Shown piece by piece: positions 17,135 to 46,146 of a stretch of DNA of 57,952 nt (the first letter of the stretch is position 1; each line of letters opens with the position of its first letter). Source of the stretch: an uncultured Pedosphaera sp. GTDB taxonomy: Bacteria > Verrucomicrobiota > Verrucomicrobiia > Limisphaerales > Pedosphaeraceae. The notes under the pieces are model-generated. The model saw nothing but the letters and a program-made list of their open reading frames with translations, had not been told where the DNA came from and made no database searches. The stretch lies in contig CAIYZC010000484.1 of NCBI GenBank assembly GCA_903930565.1, forward strand, positions 1 to 57,952, given 5' to 3'. A program made the translations under genes and the position numbers.

Positions 17135-17286
17135 GCGCGGCTCAAGGACGCGGCTGGCCCGATCAAAGTCTTTGGCAAAAGCGTTGTGTCCTTGGGGGGA
17201 TTTGTTATGAATAGCCGCGGTTCCGGCAAGCGGGTTTTGATGCGATTTTGGTTGGCTAATCCGGGCCCGGCCCCGGATGGGTGCCG

Positions 17287-20457: not shown

Positions 20458-21100
20458 CATTCCCCTCATCATCGCGGACGACCATCCCCTCATGCGCCGG
20501 GGCATGATTGATCTGATCGCGGCCGAGCCGGCCTTCAAAATTGTGGCGCATGTCGCCAACGGGGTGGAGGCGTGGCGGGCCATTCAAGAACACCGCCCGG
20601 CGGTCGCGGTGTTGGATATTGAAATGCCGCTGAAGAATGGCTTGGAGGTGGCCCGGGCGGCGCGCGACGCGCAGTCCCCCACCGCGATCGTGCTGCTGAC
20701 CATGTTCAAGGAGGACCACGTGTTGAACGCCGCGGTGGAAGCCGGCGTGCGCGGCTACGTGCTCAAGGAAAACGCCGAGCTCGAACTGCTCCAATGTCTG
20801 CGCGCGGTGGCCGGCGGCGGTTCGTTCTTCAGCCCCGGGTTGACCGATTTTCTGCTCCGGCGCGCCGCCCTCACCCAGCAATTGCGGCGGGAGAAGCCCG
20901 GATTGGAGGCGCTGACGCCCGCCCAGCGGCGGATTCTCAAAATGATTTCCGAAGACAAAACGAGCAAGGAAATCGCCGACGCGCTCGGCATCAGCCCGCG
21001 CACGGTGGACAACCACCGCGGCAACATGTCGGAAAAGCTCGGCCTGCACGGCAGCCACTCCTTGTTAAAATTCGCCTATGACCACAAGAGCCGGCTGTGA
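20447..21100 (+). CDS. NarL/LuxR-family response regulator
   Basis: The 217-residue protein has a receiver domain at 1-125 (acidic pair Asp11/Asp12, phospho-acceptor Asp57 in VLDIEMP, Thr85, Lys107) and a LuxR-type helix-turn-helix at about 150-212 (LTPAQRRILKMISEDKTSKE to GISPRTVDNHRGNMSEKLGL). The ATG overlaps the last 11 bases of the kinase gene, so the two are translationally coupled and almost certainly partners. After phosphorylation it should bind DNA as a dimer; the repeated motif at 21106 and 21627 is a candidate target. Confidence 0.95.
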   Translation: MNADIPLIIADDHPLMRRGMIDLIAAEPAFKIVAHVANGVEAWRAIQEHRPAVAVLDIEMPLKNGLEVARAARDAQSPTAIVLLTMFKEDHVLNAAVEAGVRGYVLKENAELELLQCLRAVAGGGSFFSPGLTDFLLRRAALTQQLRREKPGLEALTPAQRRILKMISEDKTSKEIADALGISPRTVDNHRGNMSEKLGLHGSHSLLKFAYDHKSRL

Positions 21101-21105
21101 GTGTT

Positions 21106-21171: not shown

Positions 21172-21621
21172 GTGACCGAAGGTGCGCCCCCTCTCATTTC
21201 GCTCGTTCTCGCCGATGATCATCCGCGCTTCCTCGCGGCGGTGCGGGAGGTGCTCGCCGCGGACCCCCGGATGCGGGTGCTCCTGGAGGCACGGGACGGC
21301 GTGACCGCGCTGAGCGCCATCCGGCGGCTGCAGCCGCAAGTCGCGGTGCTCGATCTCGAAATGCCCGGCCTCGACGGTTTGGCCGTGGCGCGCGCCGTCG
21401 GTGAAAGCGGCCGGCCCACGGCGATTGTGCTGTTGACCATGCACAAGGCGGAGCATGTGTTTCGTTCCGCGCTTCATCGCGGCATCCGCCATTATGTCCT
21501 CAAGGAAGACTTCGACTCCCATTTGATCCCGGCCATCCACGCCGCGCTGGCAAAACAGCCGTACTTCAGCCCCAAGCTTCGGACGGCGGCGATGGCGGAC
21601 ACCCTCGCAAGTCTGCCATAG
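21172..21621 (+). CDS. Receiver-only response regulator
   Basis: The 149-residue product from a GTG start has one receiver domain: Asp15/Asp16, phospho-acceptor Asp61 in VLDLEMPGLDG, Thr89 and Lys111, so it should be phosphorylatable. It resembles the preceding regulator up to the SPK/SPG segment, but stops where the LuxR DNA-binding domain would begin. It may be a phosphate sink or a regulator acting by protein contact, or a copy of the upstream regulator that lost its output domain. It follows the regulator by 71 bp and directly precedes the giant surface-protein gene. Confidence 0.88.
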   Translation: MTEGAPPLISLVLADDHPRFLAAVREVLAADPRMRVLLEARDGVTALSAIRRLQPQVAVLDLEMPGLDGLAVARAVGESGRPTAIVLLTMHKAEHVFRSALHRGIRHYVLKEDFDSHLIPAIHAALAKQPYFSPKLRTAAMADTLASLP

Positions 21622-21626
21622 GTAAA

Positions 21627-21688: not shown

Positions 21689-21739
21689 CCTCCCGAGACG
21701 AACCTTTGTAAACCCCGCCAACTTGGAAACCTGAAGCAA

Positions 21740-24700
21740 ATGAACACCCTTCGTGCGGTTTTTATGAAACATTGGCTGGCCAAACTGACCCTGTTGGCCG
21801 TCGGTCTGAAGTTCACGTCGATCCCGAGCGTTTACGGGCTCCCGGTAATCTACGTCAACCAGCAAGGAACCAACGCCACCCAGGATGGGCAGAGTTGGGC
21901 CACCGCCTACCATGAATTACGGGACGCCCTGGCGACCGGGGTGGAGGCGGAATACTGGGTCGCCGCGGGAACGTATAAGCCCACGGCGGGAACTGATCGC
22001 TCCCAATCATTCACCACGCCGGGCTACGCCTACCTCCGGGGGGGATTCCGGGGAACGGAAAGCAGTGATACCCAACGCCAGTTCACCCCCGATCACTTTC
22101 CGGTCTATCAAACCGTCTTGAGCGGCGACATCGGAGTTCCGGCGACCAATGCCGTGACCGCCCAATCCGTGCTGACGAATGCCGCCACCCTGGCCTTTAA
22201 TCCGGCGGACCCGGGGTTCCAGGACAATTCCTACCATGTGATTCAAACTTCCGGCTTCTTGTTTCTGGATGGCCTGATCATCGCCAACGGCAACGCCGAT
22301 CCCGGGACGAACACCGCGGCGGGCGGAATTGATCCCGGGTTGGTCGAACTGATGAATGTGCCGGATGCGACGAGCAAAAATTTCGTAGGGCCGGGCTCGG
22401 CCTCCCAAAACCTGGATGCGCGGGTCGCCGGCGGCGGCATTCTGGTATCGAACACCCACACGGTGTTTCACAATATCTCTAACAACCCGCATTTTCCCAA
22501 TCTTGCAGATGGCGACGGGGGCGGTGACGTCACGGTGCATGACTGCCAATTCATCAATAATGGCGCCCTGGGCATGGGCGGGGCCGCCGCCTGTTATGAG
22601 TCCCAGATGGTGGTCAAAAACACGCGCTTCTGGTTGAACTCCGCCGGCTACTCCGGCGGGGCGTTTTGGGGGTTCAACCAAATCAGCTTCTTCCAAGGCT
22701 GTGACTTCTCCGGTAACGTCGCCATCCGTTCCGGTGGCGCCGTTCAATGCATCAGCATGCCGGGTGGCGATTGCTTCACTTATCCCCAATCTGACACGAA
22801 GGGCATCATCTCGGCGGCGGCTTACGTGGGGCAGACCATCTATGGGGAGGATGTCCAGATTGCCCAGGATCAGAAATCGCTCGGCGGTGACGGACTGGGC
22901 GGCTTTCTGGCGAATGCTGGTCAAATCACGCTCTCCACGGACACGCGCATCGCGCTCAGCGAATTGGCCGCTAAATCTACGCTGCAGTATGGCCTCAAAA
23001 TCGCCACCGGCCTGGCCAACGATACCGCCTCCGTGGTGGGCGGAATCGAGGCCAAGGCCTTGCTGGCCCAGGCCACCGGGTTGAGTGAGAGCACGAGCGG
23101 GAACATTTTCCTGGCTATTGGCGTCGTGGCCTTTCTGGGCCAGACGGCGGACGGGCTGGCGGTGTCGCTCGGCGCGGACCCCAACAACCCCTGGATCAAA
23201 GGCACCGCCATCGCCTTCAAGGTGCTGGCGGATTATAACAACCCGTTCAACATTCTGCTGGATCTCGCGAAACTGCTGACCGGGTTGCTCGCGCCGCCCG
23301 GGCCCAGCTACGAACAGCAGGCGGGGGATTTGTGGCGGCGGAACCAGGAGTTGTTCAACAACAATCACCAACCAACGCTCTTCTATAATTGCCAATTCAA
23401 AACCAACATCTCCACCGGCATGGGTGGGGCGCTGATGGCCTGCTACGACAACGTTTTTATTGCGAACAGCGTGTTTCAAGGGAATGCCGCCCTCACCATG
23501 GGGGGCGCCCTCGCGTTCTCGGGCTACGCCCAGCCCCTGCTCATCAATGACGCCCTGGTGGGCAACCACTGCCAGCTGGGGGCCAGTGCGATCGTTAACT
23601 CGTTCCAAACCGAGGCCCGCATCATCAACTGCACCATCGTGAGCAACCAAATCTCCGGCGCCACCAGCGGCGCCGCGATTGACAATGAAACGGGCGCCAA
23701 CGTGGTGATCGGCAACAGCATTCTGTGGGGCAATACGGTATCCAATGGGGTGGCGGGCATTGATGTTTTCACCTCCAAATACAGCAATCTGAGTCCCTCG
23801 CAGCAGGAGAATTACCAGAAGGCCGGCAATGCCCACTGGCAGTGGGTAGCGGTCTGTGATATCCGGAATTCCAACCTCCAGAGCCTCTCGCGCCTGGAAA
23901 TTGGCGGCGGCGACTTTGCCGACTTTTATGGCAACTCCTCGTCGGTGCCGCTATTTGGCGACGACACGGCGACCTACGCCACCGGTTACGTTCTCGACGC
24001 CTTTGGCTATCCCCAACCCAGCGGCGCCGACCGGGACTTTACTTATCAAAACTGGGATTTTGAGCAGGTGCCCGGCGCTCCCAATCTGGGCGAGGGCAAC
24101 CGGGAGACGCTGCGGAATCCCGCGTATGGCAATATCAGCGTCGATCCCCATCTCGGCCCGACGCTCGGGAGCTTCCCCACTTCCCCCGGGGTGGGCCGCG
24201 GCAACCCCAAACTGGCCTTCAACCGAAACGTCAGCGCCATCGTGAAGACGGATTTGCTGGGATTCCCATTTGCGGGCCGCGACATGGGGGCTGCGGAGAA
24301 CCACGGCTTCTATCCCGCCGGAGTCATCTACTACGTCAACCAGGCGCAAACCGGCGGCAGCCATGACGGCAGCAGTTGGGCCAACGCCGCGAACACCATT
24401 GCGACCAAATACCTCGCTTCCGGCGACGCGATCTGGGTGGCGGCCGGCACCTACGCGGGAAATTACGTTTTGCCCCCCGGGGTGTCGCTGTGTGGTGGCT
24501 TCGCCGGCGGCGAAACCGAGTTGGCGCAAAGCAATCCCACCGCCCATCCCACTGTGCTCACCCCGAATTATCCCACCAACACCCTCACTACTCTGGGTGG
24601 CGGGGCCGTGATCCATGGCCTGACTTTCCAGTCCCAAACGCTCAGCGCCGGCAGCGCCCTGGCCGTAAACGGCCCCGCCACGGTGCAGTATTGCACTTTC

Positions 24701-27700
24701 CTCAACAATCACGCCCCCTCCGGGGTGCTGAACGCCGGCGGCTCCAGTCTCAATCTGGATCAGTGCAATTTCGCGGGCAACGGCGGTAACTATGGCGCGC
24801 TGTTCAGCCAGGCCGCGACCACGCGCATTCGCAACTGTCGCTTTGACCATAACGAGGGATGGTTTGCCGGCGGATGCTACCTGGCGGGGAGCGCCGGCAC
24901 CGCCATTGTCTGGGGCTCCGAGTTTTACGCAAACGACGGCGGGTCCATCGTGAGCGGCCAGTCCTCCCTCCAGGTCCAAAACTGCACTCTTTTTGGGAAC
25001 ACCGGCCTGTCCGGCGGCCCGGCCAAAGCCGCGGGGATTTACTTCACGGGCAGCGGATCCTGTGGTGTGCTCAACACCATCCTTTACAGCAATTCCATTG
25101 CTGGTGCCGCATTGGCCTTGGAGTATCAACAAATCAATCCGGCGCCCCAGTCCCGGATCCAAAACTGCCTGGTTCAGGGATTGACCTTCCTGCCGAGCAC
25201 GAATTCACTGGACATGAGTCCGCAGTTGCAGATTCAGTTCGCCCCCTTTGCTTCGCCCAACGGCCTGGTGGCGATTCCGGCCCTGCAGATCGCTCCGCCC
25301 GCCGACGGCGTCGGCGCTTCGCTGGCCATCAACGGCGGGGCGATGAATTACGATGACGACATCGCCACCCCGACGGATCTCACGGGGCAACCGCGTATTA
25401 CGGGCGGCGCCATTGACATCGGCGCGTATGAATATCAGGGCGCGCCGCCCTCCGTGATCGCCAACGGTGTGCCGGCTTTGAGCACGGAGTGCGATGGCGG
25501 CGGAGCCACGCTCACGCTGACGGCTTCGCCCCCGGTGCCCGCCGATTGCCCGCTGCGCTGGCAGGTGAACACCGGTGATGGCAATGGCTTCACGGATCTC
25601 GCCATGTCCCCCGCCGGCGGCCAGGTCCGATTTGGCAACACCGCCTACACCCAACCCAACAGCGCCGTGGGTGGTAACCGGCTCTTTCCGGCGCCGTCCA
25701 TCTCCGGATTGAACACCTCGCAGCTCATCATCAGCAATCCCCCCGGCGCGATCAACGGATACTCGTTTCGGCTATGGTGCCTCGGCGGACCATCCAGCCG
25801 CACTCCGCCATTCCCCGAGTACCTCACTCCGGCGGTGGGCATTTCCGTGTCGGCCAACCGCTTGCTCTTCGTGAACGCCGCGGCCACCGGTAACAACGAC
25901 GGCAGCAGCTGGCGGGATGCGTTTCAAAACCTGCATGATGCCCTGGAGCGGTCGCCCGGCAGTTGCGGACAGATTTGGGTGGCGCGCGGGACCTACTACG
26001 ACGGCACCTTTGCCCCGGCGCCGGGACAATTTGTTTACGGCGGCTTTGCCGGGACGGAAACCAACCTGACCCAGCGCAACTGGCAGGCCAATCCGACCAT
26101 CCTGCAATCCCTGAGCGGAGCCACGGTGGAGATGGGCAACCCGGGCGGCAGCCCGCCCGGGGCTTTGGACGGATTCGTGCTGCAGCAAACATCACCCGGA
26201 CCAGCCCTGGTGGTTACCGGTGGATCGCCCACCATTCAGAACTGCGGGTTCACTCCCGTGGCGGGCGGCACGTATGCCGTGCTCGTCGCCGACGGTAACC
26301 CCACGTTAAACCACTGCCAATTCCTCAACTGGCCGCAAACCGCTTTGGTGGACAATTCCGGCGCGATTTTGCAGTCGTGTGTTTTTACGGGTAACCGCGA
26401 CTCTGTGAACGCCGGGGCGATCACCACCGGAGCCGGGGCGGGTATTTGGGCGCAAGACTGCGTATTCAATGGCAATGCCGGCGGCCTTGCGGGCGCGGTC
26501 AACCTTGCCCCGGGGACGAATTCTTCCTTCCTGCGTTGCAGTTTTACCGGCAATCATGGCGGCGCCGGCCCCGGTGCGCTGGCGATCGGCGCCAACCCCG
26601 CCGTGCTGGACAATTGTCTCTTCGCCGCCAACGCCAGTCTGCAGGGGGCCGGCGCCGTGGGCTTCGCCGGAACCAATCTGTTGGTAACCCACTGCACCGT
26701 CGCCAACAACACCGCAGCAAAAGACACCGCCGGCCTCGACCTTTACAACGGAGCCGGCATCGCGATCTGGAATTCAGTTTTCTGGGGAAACCATCTCGCG
26801 GGTGTGGCCGCAACGGAAGCGGCCCAATTGGACCAAGTCAACAGTGCCATTCACAACACGATCATCCAGGGCCTCGCGGCCTACGCCGGCAATCACAACC
26901 TCCCCTACGCGCCTCTATTTGTCAATGAAGCGGCCGGCGATTATCGCTTAATCTCCGCCTCCCCGGGGATTAACGCCGGTTCCGCCAGCGCGCCGCAAGC
27001 GGCGAGTCCCGCGCTGGATCTGGCCGGCAATGCGCGGGCTTACGCGGGAACTTTGCCCGATGCCGGGTGTTACGAATTGCCGGGTGCGGGTGCGGGGCCC
27101 TTGAATCTGCTCGGCATCCCGGTGGCCGCGGGTGTTTGCGAAGGTTCGGGCGCGGCCATCCAATTCGGCGCGGTCGCCCCCGCTGGCAGTAACTACTTGT
27201 GCCAGTGGTATGCGCCCACCACCAACACCTCCACCCTGGTTGCCGGCGGGGGTGATTTCCAAGTGGTCCAGGCCGGATCCTCCAACCTCCTGAATATCCT
27301 GAACGCGGAACGTTATGTTGGCCGGCAATTCCAAGTGGTGGTCAACGGGACGGCCCTGGCCCCCGTGACGATCTTCCTCAATCCGCCCGCGGCCATCATT
27401 TATGTGAACGCGGCGGTGGCGGCATCCGGCGACGGGGCGGGCTGGGCAAGCGCCTTCCGAACGGTGCCGGAGGCCCTGGCCGTTGCCGGTGGTTGCACGG
27501 AGATCTGGGTGGCCCGGGGCGCCTATGCCAGCGGCCCGGGCATTCAACTTAAGAATGGCGTCAGCCTCCTGGGTGGCTTCAGCGGCAACGAGACCGCCCG
27601 GAGCCAGCGCAATCTGACGAACAATGTCTCCTACCTGGTGCCGTCGTCCGCCAACGGCCCCATCGTCTCCGCCATTGGTCTGCCGAATAATCCGTTCGTC

Positions 27701-30700
27701 GGAGCCGGCCTGCTGGACGGCTTTTATCTCACCGCCAACGGCACGGTGTCCACCCAACCGGCGCTGACGATTTCGCATTCCGCGCCCATCATCCGGAATT
27801 GCACTTTCGGAACCAATGCCCTGGCGGTCCTGGTCAATCAGGCCGGCGATGTCGTGTTGGATACCTGCCTCTTTACCGCCAACCATGGGTCTTCGCTTGT
27901 CATCCAATCCGCCACGAATTTCCAGGCCCTGAATTGCCGTTTCCGCGACGGGCGCGGGCGGTGCGAAGTGACGCTGACCAATTCCATGGCGCAATTCAAC
28001 GGCTGCCTCTTCAACAGCAATCAAGTCGCCGGCAGCCAGACCATTCTTGCCAGTCAATCGACACTCGGCCTGGCGGACTGCGTCATTTCCGGCAACATCG
28101 GTTCCGGCGTCCTCACCGCGTACGGCAGCACGGTCAATCTCAACGACTCCGAGATCACCCGGAACACGGCCACGAATGATTCGTCCGCGATATACGGCGA
28201 TTTCACGGCCTGGAACCTGGTGAACGACACCATCGCCTACAATCAGGCCGACGGCTTGACGGCCGGTCTGTGCGCGGTTTCCAGCAATGGCTCCGTCAGG
28301 CTCGTCAACACCATCCTTTGGCAGAACACGACCACCCGGAACAATCGCACGGCGGAACAGGCGCAGTTGTACCTCGGGCCCGACAATCCGGTGATTGCCA
28401 ACTGCCTTGTCCAAGGACTCAATTACTATTCGGATGCGGGTCCGGGGCTGTTGGCCTACGACCCGGTGTTCGTCAACCCCGCAGCCGGCAATTTTCAACT
28501 AACTTCCGTATCCCCCGCGGTTGGCGTTGGTGGCACCGCGGAGATTTCCGCGGCTACGGTGGATCCCTTGGGAAACCCGCGGTTGCATGGCGGAGTGGCG
28601 GACCTCGGCGCTTATGCCTTCACGGGCCTGGCCACCTTGCCTTCCTACTTGGACTATTCCCTGATGGATCAATCGGTCTGCCGCTTCGGCGACACCAGCT
28701 TCCACGTGTTCGACTTGTCCGGCCAGGCCCTGGCCATTACCTGGCAGGTCAATGCCGGCACCGGCTTCACCAACGTGGTCAATGATGCCTTCGATACGGT
28801 CACCCCTGCCCCCAATGGTTCCTCCCTGCGGTTGTATCCCGTCCCGTCCAACTTCAATGCCAACCTTTACCGGTTCATCGCGGCCGGCTCGGTTAACTTC
28901 ACTTCGCCGGTGGTGACGCTGACCGTCAATCCCCAGACCATTGTGTACGTGGATTCCCAGGCGCACGGCGCCAACAACGGATCGAGCTGGAGCGACGCTT
29001 TCAACAGCCTGTCGGCCGCCATTAATGCGTCCTCCTTCTGCAACACGATTTGGGTCGCCGCCGGGACCTACGATGTGACGGACGCGGTGTTGCCACCCGG
29101 AGTGGAAATCGACGGCGGATTCACCAATGGCGCCCCGCTGAGCGCCCGCAATCCCGGGACGCACCCGACCGTGCTCACGGTTTCCGCGAACCTGCCTATG
29201 ACCCAATTCGCGGCCGAGGCGGTTGGCCAGCATACCATCCTGGACGGGTTAATTTTCAGCAATTCGATCACCGCGCTCAGGATTAACCGGGATGGGGGCA
29301 GCCCAATCATTCAAAACTGCATTTTTGCAAAGTGCGGCCTCATTGCCTTCCAGTTTTCCTCGCCGATCCTCAGCAATGTCACCTTTTCCGGCAGCAGCGG
29401 TTACTACCCCATCCAAATTACGGGCGGCCGGGTCAGCCTGAGCCAGTGCGTCATCAGCAATTGCCTGAGTGGAATTTATGCGAGCCAGGGGGGCTTCGTG
29501 TCGGCCGTCAATTGTCAGTTTATTAACAACACCAACGCTTCCGATTCGGGCGTGGCTCATTTGTTGGCTGGGGCCAGCTTCCTGAATTGCGCTTTTGTTG
29601 GCAATTCCGGTCTCAACGCGGGGGCGGTGCTCGTGGAGGGAACACCCGTCACCTTTCGGGATTGTCTCGTGGCCCGGAACGTTGGCGGTCATGGCGCTAT
29701 TTGGAATTTGCAACCCTCCACCTTTGTCAATTGCACCATTGTCACCAACACCTCAACTTATGGCGGGGGCATTGAAAATTCCTCCGTCGCTCCGGTTACG
29801 CTCCTGAATTCCATCGTCTGGGGAAATACCGCGACGAGTTCCACCAATCGACTGGTCTCCCAGATTTTGTCCGACTATTCCCAGCCGGGCTATACCCTGG
29901 CCAATGACATCCTCCAGTTCAACACGAACGGACTCATCACCATCGATCCCGCGCTGAATGCCAACTATACGCTGCCGGCAACCTCGGCCGCGATCAATGC
30001 CGGCAATAACGCCTTCACGCTGGCGGGGGAAACCGATCTGGCCGGCAACCCGCGCATCGAGGGTGGCACCGTGGACATCGGCGCTTACGAAATGTCCGCC
30101 TACCTGGGCACCAACGGCGTGACCTACGGTCCGCCGCCACAGTCCGTCACCGTCTGCCAGGGCAGCCCGGCGCTATTTCAAGCCAGCGGCCTGGCCACGT
30201 ACACCTACCAGTGGCAATACAGTTTCGGCCCCGGATGGACGAACTTCACCGCCGGTCCCTGGCTGGGCGCCAGCGTGACTCTCCTGACGAATGGTGGCGT
30301 CTCGACGTTGCAACTGACCGCGGTGGGCACCAATCTCAACAACCTGTCCGTTCGAGCCCTTTTCGGCGGCACCTCCTACATCACGCCTGCTGCCACGCTC
30401 ACGGTCATTCCGACCCCGATTATCTACGTCGATGCCTCGGGGCCCACCAACGGCAATGGCAGCAGTTGGGCGCAGGCCTATCAGAGCCTGTCAGCGGTCC
30501 TGGACGCGATCTGGCTATCCACCGAATGCGCGCCGATCATTGAAATGGCTCAAGGGACCTATACCACGGCGGGGACCTTCAGCCTGCCGCCCGGGGTGGC
30601 CATCTATGGCGGATTCCCGAGCGGCGGTGGCCCGTTACCTTCCCGCGATTCGCAGGCCCATCCAACCATTTTGAATACCACCGCCAGTCCCGGGACGGTG

Positions 30701-39700: not shown

Positions 39701-42700
39701 CAGCATGACGGCGGCGCCACACGCACGGACGCGTTCAGTTACGTGGCCGACAATCTCGCGACGCACAGTTCCGCCACGGGAACGGTGTTGATCACCATCA
39801 CCAACTTGGATCACACGCCCATGGCGATCACCTTGGACGCCGCCTCGGTTTATGAGGCGCAATCCGCCGGCACCGTGGTCGGACGGTTGTCCGCCATTGA
39901 TCCCGATCCGGCGCATACCCAATTCGTTTTCAGTCTGGTCACCGGCCCGGGCGCGCCGGACAACGCCGCCTTTGCGATTCAGGGGAACGTTCTCGTGACG
40001 GCGGGGCCGTTGGACGCCTCCGCGGGCCTGACCCGCGTCGTGCGGGTGCGTGCCACGGACGCTCCGTCGGCCTATGACGCAGGGGGCGCTTACAGCGAAA
40101 CCAATCTGACAATTGCCGTCCTGCCGGTGCCCGTCGCCCTGGCGCAGAGTGTCAACGTGCTCGAAAACCTCTCCGCGGCCGTCACGCTCGCGGGCACGTC
40201 CGCGGTGAGTTATTCGGTGGTCCAGGGCCCCGCGCATGGCGGGCTGACGGGAACAGCGCCGCATCTGGTGTATCGGCCCAACCCGAATTACTCGGGGCCG
40301 GACGCCTTCACGTTCCAGGTGAGCGACGGCGTGCTGACCTCGGCCGTGGCCACCGTCTCCCTCGCCGTGGCGTTCGTGAACCAGCCGCCCACCGCGCCCG
40401 ATCAGCACCTGACCGGATTGGAAAACGCGCCTTTGGATTTCGTGCTGGCGGCGGCGCCGTTCGCCGCCGATCATTCGCTGACCTACCAAATCATCGACCC
40501 GCCCGCCTACGGCGACCTGGTCGGCAGCGGCCCGCACCTCACGTATCGGCCGCCCACCAACTTCCATGGCGGCGTCGCCTTTGATTATGTGGCCGTGGAC
40601 AACGGGCTGACCAGCCGCGTGGCCGTCGTCATCATTACCGTCCAGCATGTGGTGCAACCTCCGGTGGCCGCTTCGCGCAGTTACTCGACCATGGCCAACA
40701 CCGAGATCCAGATTCCGCTTATTGCCAATGATTGGGATTTCGCCCCACTTTCCTATCGGCTCGTGACGCCCCCGGCCCATGGCGTGGTGATCGCCGATTT
40801 TGCGGCGTTGCCCAGCCTCCGGACGTTTCTCACGACTTACCGCCCGGACCCCGGCTTCTTTGGCACCGACACGTTCACTTTCGTGGCCAACAACGGCACT
40901 TTTGATTCATCGCCCGCCTCCATTACGATCACGGTAAACCCGCCGCCGAACCCGGTGGGGCAGTCGCAGACCGTTTTCACCACGGCGGGCACCCCGGTTG
41001 ATTTCACCCTGGCCGGATACGATAGTGGTGGTCTGACGAACCTGCCTTTGGGTTACTTCCTTGTGGGATTCCCGATTCACGGCACGCTCACGGAAAGAAC
41101 ATCCGCGGACTTCACCTACACCCCAGCGGCGGGATTCCTGGGGAATGACTCGTTGCAATTCGAAGTATGGGAGTCCGGCGTTTTCTCGGCCCCGGCCCGG
41201 GTGCAATTCGTGGTCTCCCCCCAGGGGCCGACCGCCTCCGCGGCGGTTTACACCAACTACGGCAATCCCATTACGATTACGTTGCAGGCCACAAATCCCA
41301 ACGGCCTGCCGCTCACCTATGCGATCGTCAACGGCCCGACCAACGGCGTCATCACCGCGACGAACCTTCCTCTCGTCACCTACACACCATTACCGAACAC
41401 ACCGGGCGATGATCATTTCACGTTTTCGGCGGCCGACGGTCTGGGGGTAACCGGCACGGCGGACATTACCATTATTCCGGGTTCCGATTCCTATCATGCT
41501 CCGCTGTTGACCACGGTCCAGGCGGCGGGCTTCATCGGGGTGCCGGTCACCATCGGGATTGATCAATTTGCCATGGACCCCGCCGGCGACCCGTTGGGCG
41601 TCGCGGGCGTCGTGCCGGCGGGGGCCGGCCAGGCCACTTTCACCCGTGGTTCCATTACGCTGACGCCGGCCGCCGCGGGACTCAGTCAGCAGTTTGACGT
41701 CACGGTGACCAATCGCTTTGCCGGCGCCTTGGTGGCCGTCTTCGTCATCGGCGTGGAGCGGCGCATTGTCGTCGGCGATTATGGCAGTCCGGCTGCCCTC
41801 CCGATCGTTGCGGGGCTGACCAATGTGTTTGCGGATGGCGTGGGCGGCTTGTTTGTTCCGGCCGCCGACATCTCGGCGGCGGTGGCCTTGGCCAACTCCG
41901 CCGGCGTGGCGCTCGATTGGCGGATCAACACCGCGCTCCCGCCCGCCTCCTCCCCCTTGGTGGTCGTCGGTGCCCAAACCAACACGCCGGACGGGGATCC
42001 GTCGGCCTTGTTGATCGCGGCCGATATCAGCCTCTCACCTTTGCCGTCGGCGGCGGCCCAAACGGGGCCTCCGCTGGTGCTGACCGCCGATCCTGCCGCC
42101 CCGCCGATGCGGTTGTTCCAGATCGCCCCGGGGGCGCGGCTGCACCTGGAGAATTGCATTGTTACGGGTGGCGCGGCGCGCACCGGCGGCGGGATCTACA
42201 ACGAAGGCTCGCTGGAGCTTGTGGACGTGGTGCTTACCAACAATTCGGCCCGAAGCCCGCAGGCGGGCGCCGGTTTGGGCGGTGCCATCTATAATCGCAA
42301 TGGATCCGTCACCCTGACCAACGCCACGCTGGCCGGTAATCTGGCGGACCTGGCGGGGGGCATTTACCAGTTGGGCGATGGCGCGGCCGCGACCCTGGTG
42401 GTCTCCAACGCGTTCCTGTCCGGTCATGGCGCGGCGCATGACTTCTATTCCACCAATGCGAATGGCGGAACCGCCACCATCACCGCCATGCTGCTCACCG
42501 CGGAGCATCCCACCGCCCCCTGGTTTGGCCCCTTGCCCGCCGCTTTCGCGGTCCGGGACAATGTGACCATCCCTTTCCCGGTGGACTATGACCCGAACCG
42601 CTTCCAATTCCGCGTTACCCCCGCCCACCCTTGGGGGGACGCCGCCACGGTGCAAATCAATGGCGTCGGCTCCACCCGGCGGCTCGCGCTGACGCTGGCG

Positions 42701-45700
42701 GATGCCGCGCCCCGGGATCCCGCCCCGGTCACGATCACCCTCACGAATGGCGGACGGGCCTACACGGAGGTATTTACGGTGGCGGTGGACCCGGCGGCGG
42801 CCAATGCGCCCCGGGCGGTGACCGATCAGGCGGCGGTGCCGGAGTTTGGCTCCGTGGTCATCCCGGTCTTGGCGAATGATTTTAATCTGGACGGCACGAA
42901 CGCGCCGTTGAGCATTGTAAGCGTGGGCGCTGCGGGGGAAGGTTTGGTTACCATCTCCGGAACCAACGTGGTTTACCAGAACACGGGCAACGATACGCCC
43001 GCCGACAGCTTCACTTACACAATCTCCAACGGGCACGGGATGGCATCCGGAACGGTCAACCTCACGTTGGTTAACGCCAATAATTACTCGTCATACATCA
43101 CCTCGAACGCGGATGACGGCTCGCTGGGCACGTTGCGGGGCGCGCTGAATTTCGCGAACCAATTCTACCGCGACACCGGTTGGGACCTTGCCCTGTTGGA
43201 CAACTACGCCAGCGGGGTCGCCGACAACTCCCGGCTGGCGTTCACCTCCGTGGTGGAGACGCCGGTGGGTCCCGCGGCGTTTGTGATTTCCGAGCGGATC
43301 ACCATTGATGGCAGCGGTTTGCCCGATGCCACCCTGGTCATGAATTCGGCCACCCCTGCCCGTCTCTTTTATATCACCCCCAGCGGCAGTCTGACCTTGC
43401 GCGGGGTCCGGTTGACCGGCGGCGTGGCCGCGCCGGGCGTCTTTGGCGCGGGGCTGGGCGGTGCGATCTACAACGAGGGATCGCTCACGCTGGAAAATGT
43501 CACCCTCGACGGCAACGTGGCCCTCGGCACCAGCCAACTCCCCGGGTTGGGTGGCGCGATCTACAACCTCGGCAACATCTGGATGGACACGGTCACCCTC
43601 GCCAATAACTTGGCGTTTGATGGCGGGGCCATTTACCAAGTGGGCGATGGCAACGCGGTGGGGGTGGCAATGACCAATTCGTATCTGAACAATCCCGATT
43701 CGCTCTACGATCTGACGAGTGCCGCCACCAATGGCGGCACCGCCGCCACCGCCCCCGGCAACAGTTTCGTGTTCCATCCCTCCCCGCCTTTCGTGTCGGG
43801 CTTGGCGGATCAAATGATCGTGGGCACCAACCAGCTCAGTTTCCAAGTCGTGGGGACCGGAGCGGACTTGCGACTGACCGCCACCTCGGCCAACGAATTG
43901 GTGGTGCCCTCCGCCAACCTGGGCTTCGGCGGCACCGGCGCGGTGCGCAGCCTCCAGGTCGAGCCGCAAAACGCCGGCGTGGCGGGCATCCGGGTCACGG
44001 CCTCAATTGGCGGCGTTTCCTGCTCGCAAAATTTCACCCTGACGGTTGCCGGCACATTTGCGAACCCCATCGTGACGACGCTTGAGGCCACGGCGGTGGA
44101 TGTCACGTCGGCGCAATTGAACGCCATGGTCACCCCGGGGGCGCAAAGCGCCAAAGTGTATTTTGAGTACGGGCCGACCGCCGGGTATGGTCATTATTCC
44201 GCCACCAACGTGATCGCGGCCGGGGGGGTGAATGTGGCGGTCGGTTTGCCGGTGGCGGGATTGGCGGCCGGGACGGCCGTTTATTACCAAGCCGTGGTGG
44301 AGAATGCCAACGGCACCGCGCTGGGCGGTCCGGCGGGCTTCGTGACGGCCGTCGCGCCGCCGCTGACCGCCACCACGCTGGCGGCGACCAGCGTGGCGAC
44401 CAACACGGCGACGTTGAACGGCACGGTGGACGCCCCGGTGTTGGCGACGGCCGTCAGCTTTGCGTGGGGAACGAACCCCGGCCTGGGCCATACCGTCCCG
44501 GTTGGAGTTTTGGCGGCGGCCGCCGGCGGGCGGAGCGTGAGCACGCTCCTGACGGGATTGACGCCCGGCACCACCTACTACTACGCCGTGCTGGCGTCCA
44601 ATGCGGGCCGGATCGTCAAGGGTGCCACCTTGAGCTTCACCACCATGCCCAGCTCCGTCATCCTGACCGCAGGCCCGGCCATCGTCCTGACCGGCACCGA
44701 GCAGGCCGACGTCATGATCGTGGGCCAAACCGGAATCAATATGCTGGCGGCCACCAATTGGATCAGCTCCAATCCCGCCGTTCTTACAGTTAGCAGCAGC
44801 GGCTTGATCACCGGGGTCGGCGTCGGTACCGCCACTGTCAGCGCCACCGTCGCCGGCATCACCAGCACCAGCGGCCCCATCACCGTTAGCCCACAATACC
44901 TCCAAAACCGCTACAGTTTCGTCAGCGACGCCACCGACTCCGTCGGCGGCCAGGACGGCACGCTCGTGGACCCCACCACTGGTGACCCCGCCACCATCGC
45001 CAACGGCCTGTATTTGCCCGGCAATCCCACCGGGGGCAGCGGCGTGGCCGGCTATGTCTCCCTCCCCGCCGGCATCCTCACCCCCACGACTTCCCTCACC
45101 GTCGAATGCTGGTTCACGCAGAACTCGCAAAACCCTTGGGCGGAAGTGTGGGACTTCGCCAACGACCCGTCGCAGAACTTCGCGTTGATCCCCTACCCCG
45201 CCAACAACAACAATCTCATGGAAGTGGCCTTCACGCCCGCGGGCGGGGAACTCGACCTGCAAACCACTTACTCCTTCCCCACCAACGTGGAACAATATGT
45301 CACGGTGACCTACAACAACTCCTCCGCCACCGCGAACCTCTACAATAACGGCGTTCTCCTCGCCACCCGCAGCTTCCCTGGCACCGGCTACTGCCCCGGG
45401 ACCATCGGTGGGCTCGACGGCACCACGGTCAACGCGATCGGCAACGATATCTATGGCGATCCCCAGTTCAGCGGCACGGTCTATGAGTTCCGCATTTGGA
45501 ACGGCGCCGTCACCCCCGCCTACATCGCCGCCAGCGCCGCCGCCGGCCCCTCCGTCATCGTGACCAATGTCACGCCCCAATCCCTCGCCGTCACCGCCGC
45601 CTCCGCCATGGTGCTCGGCCAAGTCCAAGCCGCCGCCGTCACCGGCGGCTTCCTCCAAGTCGCCGGCGTCAACCTCACCGGCGCCGTCAACCTCTGGCAG

Positions 45701-46015
45701 AGCAGCGACCCGGCCGTCGTCAAGGTGGACGCCAACGGCAACCTTACCGCCGTCGGCGTCGGCTCCGCCACCATCAGCGCCACGGTCAACGGGGTCACCG
45801 CGACGACCGCAGCCATCATCGTCACCCCGAACACCATCAGCGTGTCCCCGGCCGCCGACGGCCTCATCCTCGACTGGGTGCCCGGCTCCGTCGTCCTCCT
45901 CCAAGCCCCGACCCTCACCGGTTCCTGGACCACCAATCGCGCCGCCGTGCCGCCCTACAGCGTCACCCCGACGCCGGGCGGAAATCAGTTCTTCCGCCTC
46001 GTCGTCAATCCCTGA
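21740..46015 (+). CDS. Giant exported multidomain surface protein (8,091 residues)
   Basis: One 24.3-kb frame without a stop. Residues 1-33 look like a signal peptide. Ten beta-helix modules follow, starting near residues 34, 861, 1373, 1886, 2401, 2893, 3375, 3833, 4370 and 4844. Each opens with a (I/L)YV(N/D)...GSSW...A(F/Y) motif, has IWVA-GTY and YGGF, and closes near a DIGAYE-type motif; Ig-like domains (often CxG...WQY) separate them. After about residue 5279 come a ninth Ig-like domain, a Big-type domain, FG-GAP repeats (5479-5826, DLNGDGSLD-type calcium loops), cadherin/VCBS-like repeats (about 5824-6590), two Pmp-like segments (about 6678-6930 and 7114-7341), two FN3-like domains (7441-7636), a Big_2 domain, a LamG-like domain (7723-7936), another Big_2 domain and the shared tail ending FFRLVVNP. 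No catalytic motif, autotransporter barrel or C-terminal membrane helix is seen. Probable role: adhesion or polysaccharide binding at the cell surface. Confidence 0.93.
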   Translation: MNTLRAVFMKHWLAKLTLLAVGLKFTSIPSVYGLPVIYVNQQGTNATQDGQSWATAYHELRDALATGVEAEYWVAAGTYKPTAGTDRSQSFTTPGYAYLRGGFRGTESSDTQRQFTPDHFPVYQTVLSGDIGVPATNAVTAQSVLTNAATLAFNPADPGFQDNSYHVIQTSGFLFLDGLIIANGNADPGTNTAAGGIDPGLVELMNVPDATSKNFVGPGSASQNLDARVAGGGILVSNTHTVFHNISNNPHFPNLADGDGGGDVTVHDCQFINNGALGMGGAAACYESQMVVKNTRFWLNSAGYSGGAFWGFNQISFFQGCDFSGNVAIRSGGAVQCISMPGGDCFTYPQSDTKGIISAAAYVGQTIYGEDVQIAQDQKSLGGDGLGGFLANAGQITLSTDTRIALSELAAKSTLQYGLKIATGLANDTASVVGGIEAKALLAQATGLSESTSGNIFLAIGVVAFLGQTADGLAVSLGADPNNPWIKGTAIAFKVLADYNNPFNILLDLAKLLTGLLAPPGPSYEQQAGDLWRRNQELFNNNHQPTLFYNCQFKTNISTGMGGALMACYDNVFIANSVFQGNAALTMGGALAFSGYAQPLLINDALVGNHCQLGASAIVNSFQTEARIINCTIVSNQISGATSGAAIDNETGANVVIGNSILWGNTVSNGVAGIDVFTSKYSNLSPSQQENYQKAGNAHWQWVAVCDIRNSNLQSLSRLEIGGGDFADFYGNSSSVPLFGDDTATYATGYVLDAFGYPQPSGADRDFTYQNWDFEQVPGAPNLGEGNRETLRNPAYGNISVDPHLGPTLGSFPTSPGVGRGNPKLAFNRNVSAIVKTDLLGFPFAGRDMGAAENHGFYPAGVIYYVNQAQTGGSHDGSSWANAANTIATKYLASGDAIWVAAGTYAGNYVLPPGVSLCGGFAGGETELAQSNPTAHPTVLTPNYPTNTLTTLGGGAVIHGLTFQSQTLSAGSALAVNGPATVQYCTFLNNHAPSGVLNAGGSSLNLDQCNFAGNGGNYGALFSQAATTRIRNCRFDHNEGWFAGGCYLAGSAGTAIVWGSEFYANDGGSIVSGQSSLQVQNCTLFGNTGLSGGPAKAAGIYFTGSGSCGVLNTILYSNSIAGAALALEYQQINPAPQSRIQNCLVQGLTFLPSTNSLDMSPQLQIQFAPFASPNGLVAIPALQIAPPADGVGASLAINGGAMNYDDDIATPTDLTGQPRITGGAIDIGAYEYQGAPPSVIANGVPALSTECDGGGATLTLTASPPVPADCPLRWQVNTGDGNGFTDLAMSPAGGQVRFGNTAYTQPNSAVGGNRLFPAPSISGLNTSQLIISNPPGAINGYSFRLWCLGGPSSRTPPFPEYLTPAVGISVSANRLLFVNAAATGNNDGSSWRDAFQNLHDALERSPGSCGQIWVARGTYYDGTFAPAPGQFVYGGFAGTETNLTQRNWQANPTILQSLSGATVEMGNPGGSPPGALDGFVLQQTSPGPALVVTGGSPTIQNCGFTPVAGGTYAVLVADGNPTLNHCQFLNWPQTALVDNSGAILQSCVFTGNRDSVNAGAITTGAGAGIWAQDCVFNGNAGGLAGAVNLAPGTNSSFLRCSFTGNHGGAGPGALAIGANPAVLDNCLFAANASLQGAGAVGFAGTNLLVTHCTVANNTAAKDTAGLDLYNGAGIAIWNSVFWGNHLAGVAATEAAQLDQVNSAIHNTIIQGLAAYAGNHNLPYAPLFVNEAAGDYRLISASPGINAGSASAPQAASPALDLAGNARAYAGTLPDAGCYELPGAGAGPLNLLGIPVAAGVCEGSGAAIQFGAVAPAGSNYLCQWYAPTTNTSTLVAGGGDFQVVQAGSSNLLNILNAERYVGRQFQVVVNGTALAPVTIFLNPPAAIIYVNAAVAASGDGAGWASAFRTVPEALAVAGGCTEIWVARGAYASGPGIQLKNGVSLLGGFSGNETARSQRNLTNNVSYLVPSSANGPIVSAIGLPNNPFVGAGLLDGFYLTANGTVSTQPALTISHSAPIIRNCTFGTNALAVLVNQAGDVVLDTCLFTANHGSSLVIQSATNFQALNCRFRDGRGRCEVTLTNSMAQFNGCLFNSNQVAGSQTILASQSTLGLADCVISGNIGSGVLTAYGSTVNLNDSEITRNTATNDSSAIYGDFTAWNLVNDTIAYNQADGLTAGLCAVSSNGSVRLVNTILWQNTTTRNNRTAEQAQLYLGPDNPVIANCLVQGLNYYSDAGPGLLAYDPVFVNPAAGNFQLTSVSPAVGVGGTAEISAATVDPLGNPRLHGGVADLGAYAFTGLATLPSYLDYSLMDQSVCRFGDTSFHVFDLSGQALAITWQVNAGTGFTNVVNDAFDTVTPAPNGSSLRLYPVPSNFNANLYRFIAAGSVNFTSPVVTLTVNPQTIVYVDSQAHGANNGSSWSDAFNSLSAAINASSFCNTIWVAAGTYDVTDAVLPPGVEIDGGFTNGAPLSARNPGTHPTVLTVSANLPMTQFAAEAVGQHTILDGLIFSNSITALRINRDGGSPIIQNCIFAKCGLIAFQFSSPILSNVTFSGSSGYYPIQITGGRVSLSQCVISNCLSGIYASQGGFVSAVNCQFINNTNASDSGVAHLLAGASFLNCAFVGNSGLNAGAVLVEGTPVTFRDCLVARNVGGHGAIWNLQPSTFVNCTIVTNTSTYGGGIENSSVAPVTLLNSIVWGNTATSSTNRLVSQILSDYSQPGYTLANDILQFNTNGLITIDPALNANYTLPATSAAINAGNNAFTLAGETDLAGNPRIEGGTVDIGAYEMSAYLGTNGVTYGPPPQSVTVCQGSPALFQASGLATYTYQWQYSFGPGWTNFTAGPWLGASVTLLTNGGVSTLQLTAVGTNLNNLSVRALFGGTSYITPAATLTVIPTPIIYVDASGPTNGNGSSWAQAYQSLSAVLDAIWLSTECAPIIEMAQGTYTTAGTFSLPPGVAIYGGFPSGGGPLPSRDSQAHPTILNTTASPGTVVTINSGGAENVLDGLIIQGGFTGIHITNAGPALQNLIVRGAGQGGGIQVEFPTPGMVISNCVLMNNVQGLQGHDGALTVVNSGFYTNGSADLNYGGAVNIANTITNGSWNFSGCTFADNTAFQGGSAAAVSYPTTFRDCLFTKNVTTHDGGVILANSANPTAFINCTIASNTVTFGNGAAIEAFTFGNYLALQNSIVWGNPGPQISYSGGSPSGAKNLVQNGAGGPFANYDPLLNADGTLSTASPAINAGLNSAVLPGEVDLAGNPRLQQSVVDIGAYESPYNGSTAPVHGAPPASLSACPGSVASFQATGLPFYSFQWQYGFGAGWTNVTNGVAIGDVPATVTTLNGVSTLTLAGVTTNLNGLQVQVIYDAQSYTTAVAVLTVPAAPTLYVDQSAAPGGDGSSWDTAYQDLGLALGQDAQISCRANILVAQGNYYSLSNFVVAPHLAIYGGFPAGGGPRNWAAYPTILTGTSNVILVTSGATNDCLIDGFTIDGGGQYGVIVSNAAPTLRNLVLSGAGQTALLAQDVAAGLIITNCVFSGNLASGNGAAINATNSLISLLACSFSNNAAANGGAIYLTNGVLTARNCLFTANLSTLQGGAIFNAGGNVTLVNCTVANNTGGTYAGGLGQSGGSATILNSIFWDNNVTSLSLSNTLPANLYAAQGNLNVTNDIVEFQSSPADGSVLNFNPFFAAGYALSANSPAINAGANAFLLGNETDRAGNPRVQNSVVDLGAYESASGGSNTLYAGPPPVPAVVCPGGSTAIFQASGLASYSIIWQYNRGGGWTDFTAGPWLFGAAVDLRSSGGVSTLGLSGFSTNLLPLQIQAVYAGLAYTTAVTTVTVPAPVLYVNATATPGGDGRSWDGAYRDLAPALLDAAQSPCQSVDILVAEGTYDAGGGYIVPPGVRVAGGFTAGGGLVNRDPSNHPTIITAAGGHSNALLTVRALVPSGPLTVLDGLQIANATQGVALYQSSVAIQNCGFQNLSGTALSASNASPAVSNCVFSSIGGRALDLENSTPVVLQCRFTNSPALPSAIGIALSNCQLAMTNCFVAGYQGGGLLVGGGGAAIMGCGFFGNASGAIYNLGGTVLLAACRLSANTGAAGAAVYNRSGTLTLRDCLLDHNTAQQGGAIYNNSGAGLLIFNSTLADNTAGVAGGAVYDAGGVCQINNSIFFQNIVTDGYYGVGTPEIYISTGSMVNLAQDIVQVDKYPLTGPGLQVVDPLFNNSAGGDYTLSARSPAIGAGSAADPDMVAPGETDLAGGARLQNGRLDLGAYESGLAPNPVSLFVSPQSLTVCGAQTAVFEIASAAPDTFQWQYNAGGGWVNLAAGAVTNGAVAAISQFGTSSSLSLDGVSTQLNGWQWRVTLVGQAFTTAAATLTVTPPQVIYVDAAAPAGGDGNSWSHALNRLEDGLNLVTGCRSEVWVAQGTYSPTAGNFGIPAWTAVYGGFPAGGGDWNTRDVNAHPTILTSRNSSPNLSVVAISYGTGMVLDGCTILGGPGLTGIAVRAANPTLNNLTISNCGNSGLSLYNAPATVSNCRLLGNTSPGGGGGALVINGSDALFRNCLFQSNSSAADGGGLYIFASKPQLQNVLITGNSSTTNVASYSFASGGIYVADCSPVLLNCTVAGNTGGIAISDDLNPPTSCCFITNSILWGNRFGGTALESQQAAGANGGRYVFANSTIEGLATFSGPGVVGNDPIFLGALPAALAPVVGGDYRLGGCSPVLGAGDASVVATLSVDLAGQPRVLGGTIGLGAYESGLVSATPLVITTQPVPLRYRNGAAGNSFSVVATGDSLAYEWQAGTNSLLGVAGFSGADTPTLAVTQAVADYDGALIRCRITAGGGCVGYSTAVPLSVVPSRYYVNGATGSDQNSGRSWSQAFQTIGRALAAPLDTNSAAVWVAAGVYAAATDAVHDWSSGYLVPANVVIYGGFAGNETSLAQRDGAAHPTWVQPLTAPVSPPAQPEFSGTAAVFVFDPTSAAGGLDGLTIANAGAGVAAEFGASGITLVNCTFTNCHYGVWNADGSAVSLTNCAFHGDFIGLDLIAGSANAEGCEFAANTGIQVNQGAAAQVWRGRFHDGGAGVVCGGGTLSVQASGFAQNNLGAALLGGSLTIQDCAFTGNLQGVSWSFRSGGALLLQRDAFRGNGATNLTFGGAVALGSLFPATIEDCLFSGNLAQSGGAIHDYYGGTTLRNCTLTGNGAYAIYCEQGAEKLFNCILWNNLPSGFDGLIDPGFLQAIDPAAAPTTNGDFHLGPCSPLVAAGDATAAVGSATDLEGRPRLFNGTLTPGAYAPQFAPFTFVMQPTNAAGSLGQSVAFAAAVATPAGATYQWQVSVGGGAFSNLVAAAPYSGVTSATLQVAGAPALSGNAYRLAATTPAGCSIYSQAAVYSFYLATAGLGNGPGGVLSASSNWLTLSLPGGVDPASAGDQSVTLYGLQSGRSTVAFSVSDGVLYAQPERPFHAGEPIFVTVNSRLKSAGGASAQPFGWQLVNDVNHWTGTLTPPQTLNLAGLSGANTLAIGDLNGDGSLDLLVSTAAGGLILTNDGAGNFANAGGLLGASAAGKIVLADTRGWGRLDALVLRNGSLEVWTNTGTGIFSLATNYPPTAVTDLALGDLNNDGFLDLFLVFPDGDQVWLNDGAGHFVDSGIHPADANGTSVALGDFDGNGYLDAVVTHAATGRGGLWSNQGGTAFTPGPENPFFAGYNRVLVADINNDGRPDLIMGSDHSGNQGYVDTYTGLGAGAFRFIGAAENAADGSSHDTMAVGDLNGDHRADVIYQTRSQQLTPNINAAGGFQGLPGQSSLGSANFISLGDLDGDGALDLAIITPAGQVAIAFQSPQLTGPQDTRLTNFGSAFSAEFASVATGALTAVTISSLPGHGTLYLSGTPVVVNQVVPADQLSALSYQGAAGYRGRDLFTWLGATADGLVNPPLNFQISVLPVIHPVAAVNDYLLVGQGDPASFLTNGAASVLANDLNPDGGPLVATLAAAPLHGLLQLHADGTFVYQHDGGATRTDAFSYVADNLATHSSATGTVLITITNLDHTPMAITLDAASVYEAQSAGTVVGRLSAIDPDPAHTQFVFSLVTGPGAPDNAAFAIQGNVLVTAGPLDASAGLTRVVRVRATDAPSAYDAGGAYSETNLTIAVLPVPVALAQSVNVLENLSAAVTLAGTSAVSYSVVQGPAHGGLTGTAPHLVYRPNPNYSGPDAFTFQVSDGVLTSAVATVSLAVAFVNQPPTAPDQHLTGLENAPLDFVLAAAPFAADHSLTYQIIDPPAYGDLVGSGPHLTYRPPTNFHGGVAFDYVAVDNGLTSRVAVVIITVQHVVQPPVAASRSYSTMANTEIQIPLIANDWDFAPLSYRLVTPPAHGVVIADFAALPSLRTFLTTYRPDPGFFGTDTFTFVANNGTFDSSPASITITVNPPPNPVGQSQTVFTTAGTPVDFTLAGYDSGGLTNLPLGYFLVGFPIHGTLTERTSADFTYTPAAGFLGNDSLQFEVWESGVFSAPARVQFVVSPQGPTASAAVYTNYGNPITITLQATNPNGLPLTYAIVNGPTNGVITATNLPLVTYTPLPNTPGDDHFTFSAADGLGVTGTADITIIPGSDSYHAPLLTTVQAAGFIGVPVTIGIDQFAMDPAGDPLGVAGVVPAGAGQATFTRGSITLTPAAAGLSQQFDVTVTNRFAGALVAVFVIGVERRIVVGDYGSPAALPIVAGLTNVFADGVGGLFVPAADISAAVALANSAGVALDWRINTALPPASSPLVVVGAQTNTPDGDPSALLIAADISLSPLPSAAAQTGPPLVLTADPAAPPMRLFQIAPGARLHLENCIVTGGAARTGGGIYNEGSLELVDVVLTNNSARSPQAGAGLGGAIYNRNGSVTLTNATLAGNLADLAGGIYQLGDGAAATLVVSNAFLSGHGAAHDFYSTNANGGTATITAMLLTAEHPTAPWFGPLPAAFAVRDNVTIPFPVDYDPNRFQFRVTPAHPWGDAATVQINGVGSTRRLALTLADAAPRDPAPVTITLTNGGRAYTEVFTVAVDPAAANAPRAVTDQAAVPEFGSVVIPVLANDFNLDGTNAPLSIVSVGAAGEGLVTISGTNVVYQNTGNDTPADSFTYTISNGHGMASGTVNLTLVNANNYSSYITSNADDGSLGTLRGALNFANQFYRDTGWDLALLDNYASGVADNSRLAFTSVVETPVGPAAFVISERITIDGSGLPDATLVMNSATPARLFYITPSGSLTLRGVRLTGGVAAPGVFGAGLGGAIYNEGSLTLENVTLDGNVALGTSQLPGLGGAIYNLGNIWMDTVTLANNLAFDGGAIYQVGDGNAVGVAMTNSYLNNPDSLYDLTSAATNGGTAATAPGNSFVFHPSPPFVSGLADQMIVGTNQLSFQVVGTGADLRLTATSANELVVPSANLGFGGTGAVRSLQVEPQNAGVAGIRVTASIGGVSCSQNFTLTVAGTFANPIVTTLEATAVDVTSAQLNAMVTPGAQSAKVYFEYGPTAGYGHYSATNVIAAGGVNVAVGLPVAGLAAGTAVYYQAVVENANGTALGGPAGFVTAVAPPLTATTLAATSVATNTATLNGTVDAPVLATAVSFAWGTNPGLGHTVPVGVLAAAAGGRSVSTLLTGLTPGTTYYYAVLASNAGRIVKGATLSFTTMPSSVILTAGPAIVLTGTEQADVMIVGQTGINMLAATNWISSNPAVLTVSSSGLITGVGVGTATVSATVAGITSTSGPITVSPQYLQNRYSFVSDATDSVGGQDGTLVDPTTGDPATIANGLYLPGNPTGGSGVAGYVSLPAGILTPTTSLTVECWFTQNSQNPWAEVWDFANDPSQNFALIPYPANNNNLMEVAFTPAGGELDLQTTYSFPTNVEQYVTVTYNNSSATANLYNNGVLLATRSFPGTGYCPGTIGGLDGTTVNAIGNDIYGDPQFSGTVYEFRIWNGAVTPAYIAASAAAGPSVIVTNVTPQSLAVTAASAMVLGQVQAAAVTGGFLQVAGVNLTGAVNLWQSSDPAVVKVDANGNLTAVGVGSATISATVNGVTATTAAIIVTPNTISVSPAADGLILDWVPGSVVLLQAPTLTGSWTTNRAAVPPYSVTPTPGGNQFFRLVVNP
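21840..37575 (+). repeat. Ten-unit tandem module array inside the giant gene
   Basis: Module starts (YVN/YVD motif) fall near 21840, 24320, 25858, 27394, 28940, 30417, 31863, 33236, 34848 and 36269. Apart from the first unit (about 2.5 kb), the period is 1.3-1.6 kb. The units are diverged at DNA level but alignable as protein, so this is an old internal duplication maintained by selection. Units 6-8 and their Ig spacers are the most alike (QASGL...WQY...GWT and G-DGSSW). Confidence 0.85.
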
Positions 46016-46055
46016 GTCCGGCGGGCCGGGTTAACCGGCGCCGCCTCGGACGAGC

Positions 46056-46103: not shown

Positions 46104-46146
46104 CGGACGGGAAAATGGGTTCGCCCGCGCCGTTACCCAATCGAGG

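Follow-up and report, generated by a model that had tools for sequence, protein, structure and literature searches.

An 8,091-residue secreted modular protein of an uncultured Pedosphaera species and its rare family of capped giants in Verrucomicrobiota

Analysis of the window (the whole stretch of DNA studied, 57,952 nucleotides from an uncultured Pedosphaera species) showed that a single, extremely large secreted protein is encoded by a genuine and intact bacterial gene. By sequence comparison, this protein is a member of a rare family of capped giants in Verrucomicrobiota, which share their tail with dozens of other predicted exported proteins. It is best explained, with a probability of about 0.6, as a secreted non-enzymatic adhesive fiber that bears a sorting-type tag at its C-terminus and is probably under the control of the neighboring two-component system. 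The features are listed in Table 1.

Table 1 Positions in the window of the giant gene, its parts, and its upstream neighbors
Feature	Position	Strand	Evidence or remark
Reg_prop/Y_Y_Y sensor histidine kinase (HisKA_3, HATPase_c), start codon uncertain	17281..20457	+	Pfam; same order at G001 C98 and C1
NarL/LuxR-type response regulator	20447..21100	+	Pfam Response_reg and GerE; start at MNADIP
Receiver-like second regulator without HTH, start uncertain	21172..21621	+	Translation; equivalent ORF at G001 C98 and C1
Giant secreted modular protein, 8,091 aa	21740..46015	+	Frame; dN/dS 0.26 versus orthologue over 3,919 codons
Signal-peptide-like N-terminus, aa 1-35, ...SIPSVYG/LPV	21740..21844	+	Sequence; orthologue N-terminus similar
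Module 1, N-terminal cap beta-helix, 827 aa	21845..24325	+	Profile A4: full length in G001 C98, C1, and C101 and in G012; nearly so in own C718
Helical insert in cap, aa ~340-543, LGxDPNNPxIKxW...YxxPL	22757..23368	+	Alignment; predicted helical, low confidence
Module 2 (beta-helix, Q motif, Ig-like)	24326..25861	+	Pfam/NCBIfam, profile matches
Module 3	25862..27394	+	Pfam/NCBIfam, profile matches
Module 4	27395..28939	+	Pfam/NCBIfam, profile matches
Module 5	28940..30418	+	Pfam/NCBIfam, profile matches
Module 6 (folded together with module 7)	30419..31864	+	AlphaFold2, pLDDT 78.8; PDB comparison
Module 7	31865..33238	+	AlphaFold2, PDB comparison, profile match
Module 8; nucleotide match with G001 orthologue stops inside, at 33466	33239..34849	+	Nucleotide comparison, profile match
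Module 9; tree partner is the G337 module at residue 2521	34850..36271	+	Profile match, tree
Module 10	36272..37855	+	Module boundaries, profile match
Linker and FG-GAP (beta-propeller type)	37856..39436	+	FG-GAP_3, E 1e-36, 6 stretches; colinear in G337
Big_9/tandem-95/cadherin-like repeats	39437..41539	+	Big_9, E 4e-60; tandem-95, E 9e-47
Two PMP-like beta-helix stretches with a Big_9 domain between	41540..43639	+	Chlam_PMP below cutoff; A2 profile match at aa 6796-6889
FN3-like, Big_2, LamG (45041-45529), Big_2	43640..45835	+	Pfam; own-genome comparison
C-terminal FYR-type tail domain	45836..46012	+	Profile A7, E 1.7e-16, best in own genome

Frame, selection, and genomic setting of the giant gene

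The gene runs on the forward strand from an ATG at 21740 to a stop codon at 46015 in one frame with no internal stop; the longest ORF in any other frame of this interval has 739 aa. A preliminary description of the sequence had claimed a single unbroken 24.3-kb gene with a signal-like start, and both claims were borne out by the frame, by purifying selection, and by the signal-peptide-like first 35 residues, which resemble the N-terminus of the orthologue. This orthologue, on contig C98 of a second species of the genus (G001), was compared with the giant over residues 1-3919 by Nei-Gojobori counting, which gave a dS of 0.43 and a dN/dS of 0.26. The dN/dS values ranged from 0.16 to 0.31 in all 13 windows of 300 codons covering residues 1-3900. 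These values indicate that the gene is maintained as a protein by purifying selection. The lysine (0.4%) and glutamate (1.5%) contents of the giant are very low compared to those of most neighboring genes, and the scarcity of lysine is greatest outside the cap.

The window belongs to a 6.6-Mb metagenome-assembled genome in 870 contigs (G000), and an IS-like insertion interrupts a paralogous giant of this genome. Both facts would suit an assembly artefact or a decaying gene, a reading whose probability we nevertheless regard as close to negligible in view of the purifying selection described above and of the following comparisons. No exact repeat of at least 20 bp was found inside the giant gene, the pairwise identity among modules is 24 to 41%, and window positions 17519-33466 and 50819-53747 match contig C98 at 83.8% and 79.6% nucleotide identity, respectively. 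Collapse, expansion, or chimera formation appears unlikely because such repeats are absent, both flanks are syntenic with the second species, and a colinear giant is present in a single-contig genome (G337). The concern about collapse or expansion raised in the preliminary description is thereby largely removed. The broken paralogue, approximately 42 to 44% identical to the giant on contig C1 of G001, is split between contigs C539 and C339; C539 in turn shares an overlap of 366 bp at 98% with C718. The inverted repeat GAGCGTGTTTTAAAAA is present at both contig ends (C539 and C339), and on the C339 side the sequence resembles the start of a transposase.

The order kinase, response regulator, receiver, giant also occurs upstream of the paralogous C1 giant in G001. 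It is absent before the C101 giant of that genome, and no such order was found within 1.7 kb at the G012 locus. Because the linkage recurs at a paralogous locus, this two-component system probably governs expression of the giant. Reg_prop sensors are often tied to polysaccharide sensing. Downstream, the interval of approximately 4.8 kb between the giant and a BrkB gene (46015-50819) is not matched at the nucleotide level in G001, in which the BrkB gene comes almost immediately after the giant; a secreted protein is encoded within this interval on the minus strand (46147-47262). Two minus-strand ORFs of 910 aa at 11497-16985 were considered as genes and set aside as probably not genes, as they have no Pfam match, are arginine rich, and show an odd GC content by codon position.

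Module array, cap, and predicted fold

The ten beta-helix modules start at residues 36, 863, 1375, 1886, 2401, 2894, 3376, 3834, 4371, and 4845. Module 1 comprises 827 aa (2.48 kb) and modules 2 to 10 comprise 458 to 537 aa (1.37 to 1.61 kb) each, in agreement with the predicted ten modules of about 1.3 to 1.6 kb with a first one of about 2.5 kb. Beta_helix (Pfam) and NF041518 choice_anch_Q (NCBIfam) matched the modules above cutoff, the latter motif lying at the module end. Profile A2, which was built from the giant's own modules, gave nine full matches after the cap. The first module is larger, as had been described, but it is more than a longer copy of the others: judged by alignment, it is a distinct N-terminal cap type with a conserved helical insert. 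Cap and insert can be aligned over their whole length among the window giant, the three giants of G001 (C98, C101, and C1), and that of G012; the cap profile A4 includes the window sequence itself. In a structural model of the cap, the insert (model residues 305-508) is drawn as helices, at a low-confidence overall pLDDT of 44.5.

A maximum likelihood tree of 41 modules, in which several deeper forks are weakly supported, paired each of window modules 2 to 7 with its positional counterpart in the C98 orthologue (100/100). The second modules of the giants from the window, C98, C1, G012, and G337 grouped together (97/97), and window module 9 grouped with the G337 module (100/96). Modules 5 to 8 form one group, the pattern expected from local tandem duplication.

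Modules 6 and 7, folded jointly with AlphaFold2, yielded a beta-helix plus a beta-sandwich, twice. Structure prediction of single modules and their junctions had been proposed as a check in the preliminary description. The nearest solved structure to the module helix is the pectate lyase Pel9A of polysaccharide lyase family 9 (PL9; Protein Data Bank entry 1ru4; Z 31.4, rmsd 2.4 over 314 residues, 17% identity; VIA-align), followed by rhombotarget A (Z approximately 29) and a PL9 rhamnogalacturonan lyase (Z 28). After these came further helices that act on polysaccharides, as well as phage tailspikes and the adhesin PfbA. The best PDB sequence match of the module profile is rhombotarget A (E 0.001). 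Modules and PL9 enzymes (1ru4 and 5olr) share a right-handed parallel beta-helix of about ten turns; the modules differ in having no sequence-family match and no conservable catalytic lysine and in forming a tandem array with Ig-like domains. Rhombotarget A (9cdu/9cdv) is likewise a beta-helix protein but has a single helix in its 465-aa chain, and the tail of the giant has no match to the GlyGly-CTERM model. With choice-of-anchor Q and polymorphic outer membrane protein-like proteins (NF041518 and TIGR01376), the modules share the terminal choice_anch_Q motif, whereas the giant consists of ten tandem units with a special cap. It differs from Chlamydia Pmp proteins in that its PMP repeats stay below cutoff and no autotransporter barrel is matched.

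In PL9 enzymes, a lysine in coil 7 is the catalytic base (PMC6627557). This base is not conservable in the modules because modules 2 to 10 contain only 0 to 2 lysines each (none in module 7), and no conserved lysine column was found across them. The conserved charged columns are few and lie chiefly in LDG, DLxGNPR, and DxGAYE motifs. In no module did a catalytic Pfam family reach cutoff, a pectate-lyase-like Pfam match staying below threshold. Enzyme activity of the modules is unlikely on these grounds, in line with the earlier statement that no catalytic motif is present; residual activity toward a substrate that can be cleaved without a lysine is conceivable. A very long reach from the cell or polysaccharide binding at many sites, both suggested earlier, may apply to a protein whose predicted module fold resembles polysaccharide-acting beta-helices.

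Relatives, C-terminal half, and tail domain

The C98 orthologue (4,774 residues) is syntenic and 81% identical over window residues 1-3919, beyond which it contains two stretches of unfamiliar sequence, a helix resembling module 9, and a tail of its own. G001 contains two further giants, on C101 (5,870 residues) and C1 (11,378 residues), and other giants of the family are present in G012 (5,605 residues) and in G337 (6,421 residues), a complete verrucomicrobial genome outside the window's order. The C1 giant (G001:C1:5539-39903) has a cap, about ten modules, NHL, FG-GAP, LamG, and Ig domains, and a different C-terminus. A search for the same domain order in Verrucomicrobiota, also proposed earlier, succeeded: window residues 5313-7443 align with G337 residues 3524-5654 (numbered from the frame start) in one match of 2,277 columns at 35% identity, and the Pfam order there is FG-GAP, cadherin/Big_9, PMP-like. 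Because G337 shares this long colinear region and Pfam order, the long layout is probably ancestral and the short C98 form derived. Strong module matches (E ≤ 1e-60) were found in 4 of 249 genomes of the order. Among 320 genomes of the order, 5 had a full or partial match to the cap profile, and a 387-genome phylum sample added 1 more (roughly 700 genomes in total, with possible overlap between the two samples). A scan with modules 5 to 7 of both orthologues yielded, besides G001, distant beta-helix proteins only. The window giant carries the traits of the capped family, namely, a cap with helical insert, tandem beta-helix/Ig modules, and an FYR-type tail.

The domain list given earlier for the C-terminal half held in substance, with the domains in the order described. 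FG-GAP, Cadherin/Big_9/tandem-95, Big_2, and LamG were found above cutoff (Pfam, NCBIfam); the Pmp-like repeats appeared only below cutoff (Chlam_PMP) and the FN3-like stretch only as a weak Pur_ac_phosph_N match. The absence of an autotransporter barrel was confirmed, as no C-terminal beta-barrel translocator family (Pfam, NCBIfam) matched the giant, which ends instead in LamG, Big_2, and the tail domain. Over residues 7637-8090, the giant shares 80% identity with the end of another LamG/Big_2 repeat gene of the same genome, and this LamG/Big_2 cassette is absent from G001. It was probably exchanged recently between genes. That gene encodes a secreted protein and is split over contigs C345 and C791 (L118 9175-11478; L027 1-2532), the shared end being approximately 454 residues long. 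Recent acquisition of the whole C-terminal half by the window species was considered and dropped because G337 shares the region from FG-GAP to PMP-like in order; by these comparisons, the recently shared part looks confined to the cassette.

The tail domain, of approximately 60 to 64 residues, occupies residues 8034-8091 and shows the pattern W...RFYRV..P at the stop codon (the giant ends in ...FFRLVVNP). It is present in the giants of the window, C98, C101, G012, and G337 and absent from the C1 giant. Neither a Pfam nor an NCBIfam model was found for it, and eight tail sequences gave no match to NCBIfam sorting domains (such as the Por-type domain of type IX secretion cargo) even at E 10. Profile A7, made from eight tails including the giant's own, had 77 matches in the window's genome and 105 in G001 at E ≤ 0.1. 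The match ended within 6 residues of the stop codon in 51 of 53 cases examined, comprising 30 of the 30 best (one of which has its stop codon within the final two residues of the match) and 21 of the 23 weaker cases. A simple hydrophobicity rule recognized a signal-like start in 14 of 15 carriers whose ORFs are complete. The carriers include a GH76 glycosidase, a kumamolisin-type protease, a phosphoesterase, a PATR-repeat protein, and Ig-domain proteins. In the window itself, a secreted 1,103-aa Ig I-set protein (1664-4975) ends in such a tail (4805-4972). At E ≤ 1e-6, only 13 of the 96 genomes in a phylum sample had the tail, and none besides the window's genome had more than five matches.

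Because the tail stands at the stop codons of signal-bearing proteins of unrelated kinds, its distribution has the pattern expected of a sorting-type tag. The tail might be the signal of an undescribed export or surface-anchoring pathway of this verrucomicrobial order, with many unrelated cargoes per genome, the giant among them; we put this forward tentatively, as somewhat less probable than its converse. It could also be an ordinary domain, and the tailless 11,378-aa C1 paralogue argues against the tag reading. PF14349 (SprA, the type IX translocon) matched none of G000, G001, and G012, and control genomes gave no signal either. The preliminary description had found neither a membrane anchor nor a visible export route. 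A PEP-CTERM/GlyGly-CTERM/LPXTG-type end (short motif, hydrophobic helix, basic end) is indeed absent from the giant, with no NCBIfam match, and no machinery tied to the tail was found; the C-terminus is nevertheless not featureless, since it carries a domain found across the genome and distributed like a sorting tag. A literature search turned up neither the tail domain nor this giant.

Function and comparison with known giants

In the favored reading, a Sec-type signal would take the giant across the inner membrane, and the helix-bearing cap with nine beta-helix/Ig units would form a long rod, followed by the propeller, the cadherin-like repeats, and the LamG domain. The PL9-like helices would serve as binding or spacer elements rather than as enzymes, possibly for glycans, and the C-terminal domain common to many exported proteins would act as a sorting or surface-attachment tag. 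The adjacent Reg_prop system would probably set expression.

A passive structural coat or matrix polymer without specific ligand would also fit a low-charge, lysine-poor, repetitive, beta-rich protein whose array persists although module number differs between species; we consider it improbable, as the LamG, propeller, and cadherin-like domains suggest binding and the adjoining sensor kinase is of a type often tied to polysaccharide sensing. That the modules are active polysaccharide lyases or hydrolases, making the giant a multi-enzyme that degrades particle or cell-wall glycans, is unlikely, if the least so of these alternatives. The fold nearest to PL9 lyases speaks for it, as do the high scores of PL6, GH87, GH110, and AlgE-type enzymes in the same comparison and a giant with tandem beta-helices from another PVC lineage, for which a catabolic, predatory reading was proposed (PMC12057145); the missing catalytic families, the near absence of lysine, and the few conserved charges described above speak against it. 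The size class and adhesion-type domains recall the giant ORFs of Omnitrophota, some with LamG, for which a weapon or attachment role was proposed (PMC10066038). A device for predation or host contact is nevertheless rather unlikely here: the giant has no toxin domain and no strong transmembrane helix besides the signal, the genomes (6.6 to 7.2 Mb) are not reduced, and the family is patchily distributed with no tie to a known symbiotic lineage.

Giant ORFs of this size class have been described in PVC bacteria (PMC10066038, PMC12057145, PMC11573180), so the kind is not new; what is new is the conserved capped architecture and the undescribed tail. Like the window giant, those of Omnitrophota and other PVC lineages are single ORFs of >20 kb with adhesion-type domains, including LamG (PMC10066038; PMC12057145). 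They differ in that many transmembrane helices are often predicted in them and their domains are often few and poorly conserved, whereas the domain order of the window giant is conserved between taxonomic orders and its host is a large-genome member of Verrucomicrobiota. Giant genes of uncultured PVC bacteria are mostly poorly conserved and difficult to interpret. In this case, the module tree together with synteny, selection, and a complete-genome homologue points to a rare family of giants in which the layout is ancestral, the cap is fixed, and the module arrays grow or shrink. The shared tail offers a testable lead on how this group of Verrucomicrobiota may sort large secreted proteins.
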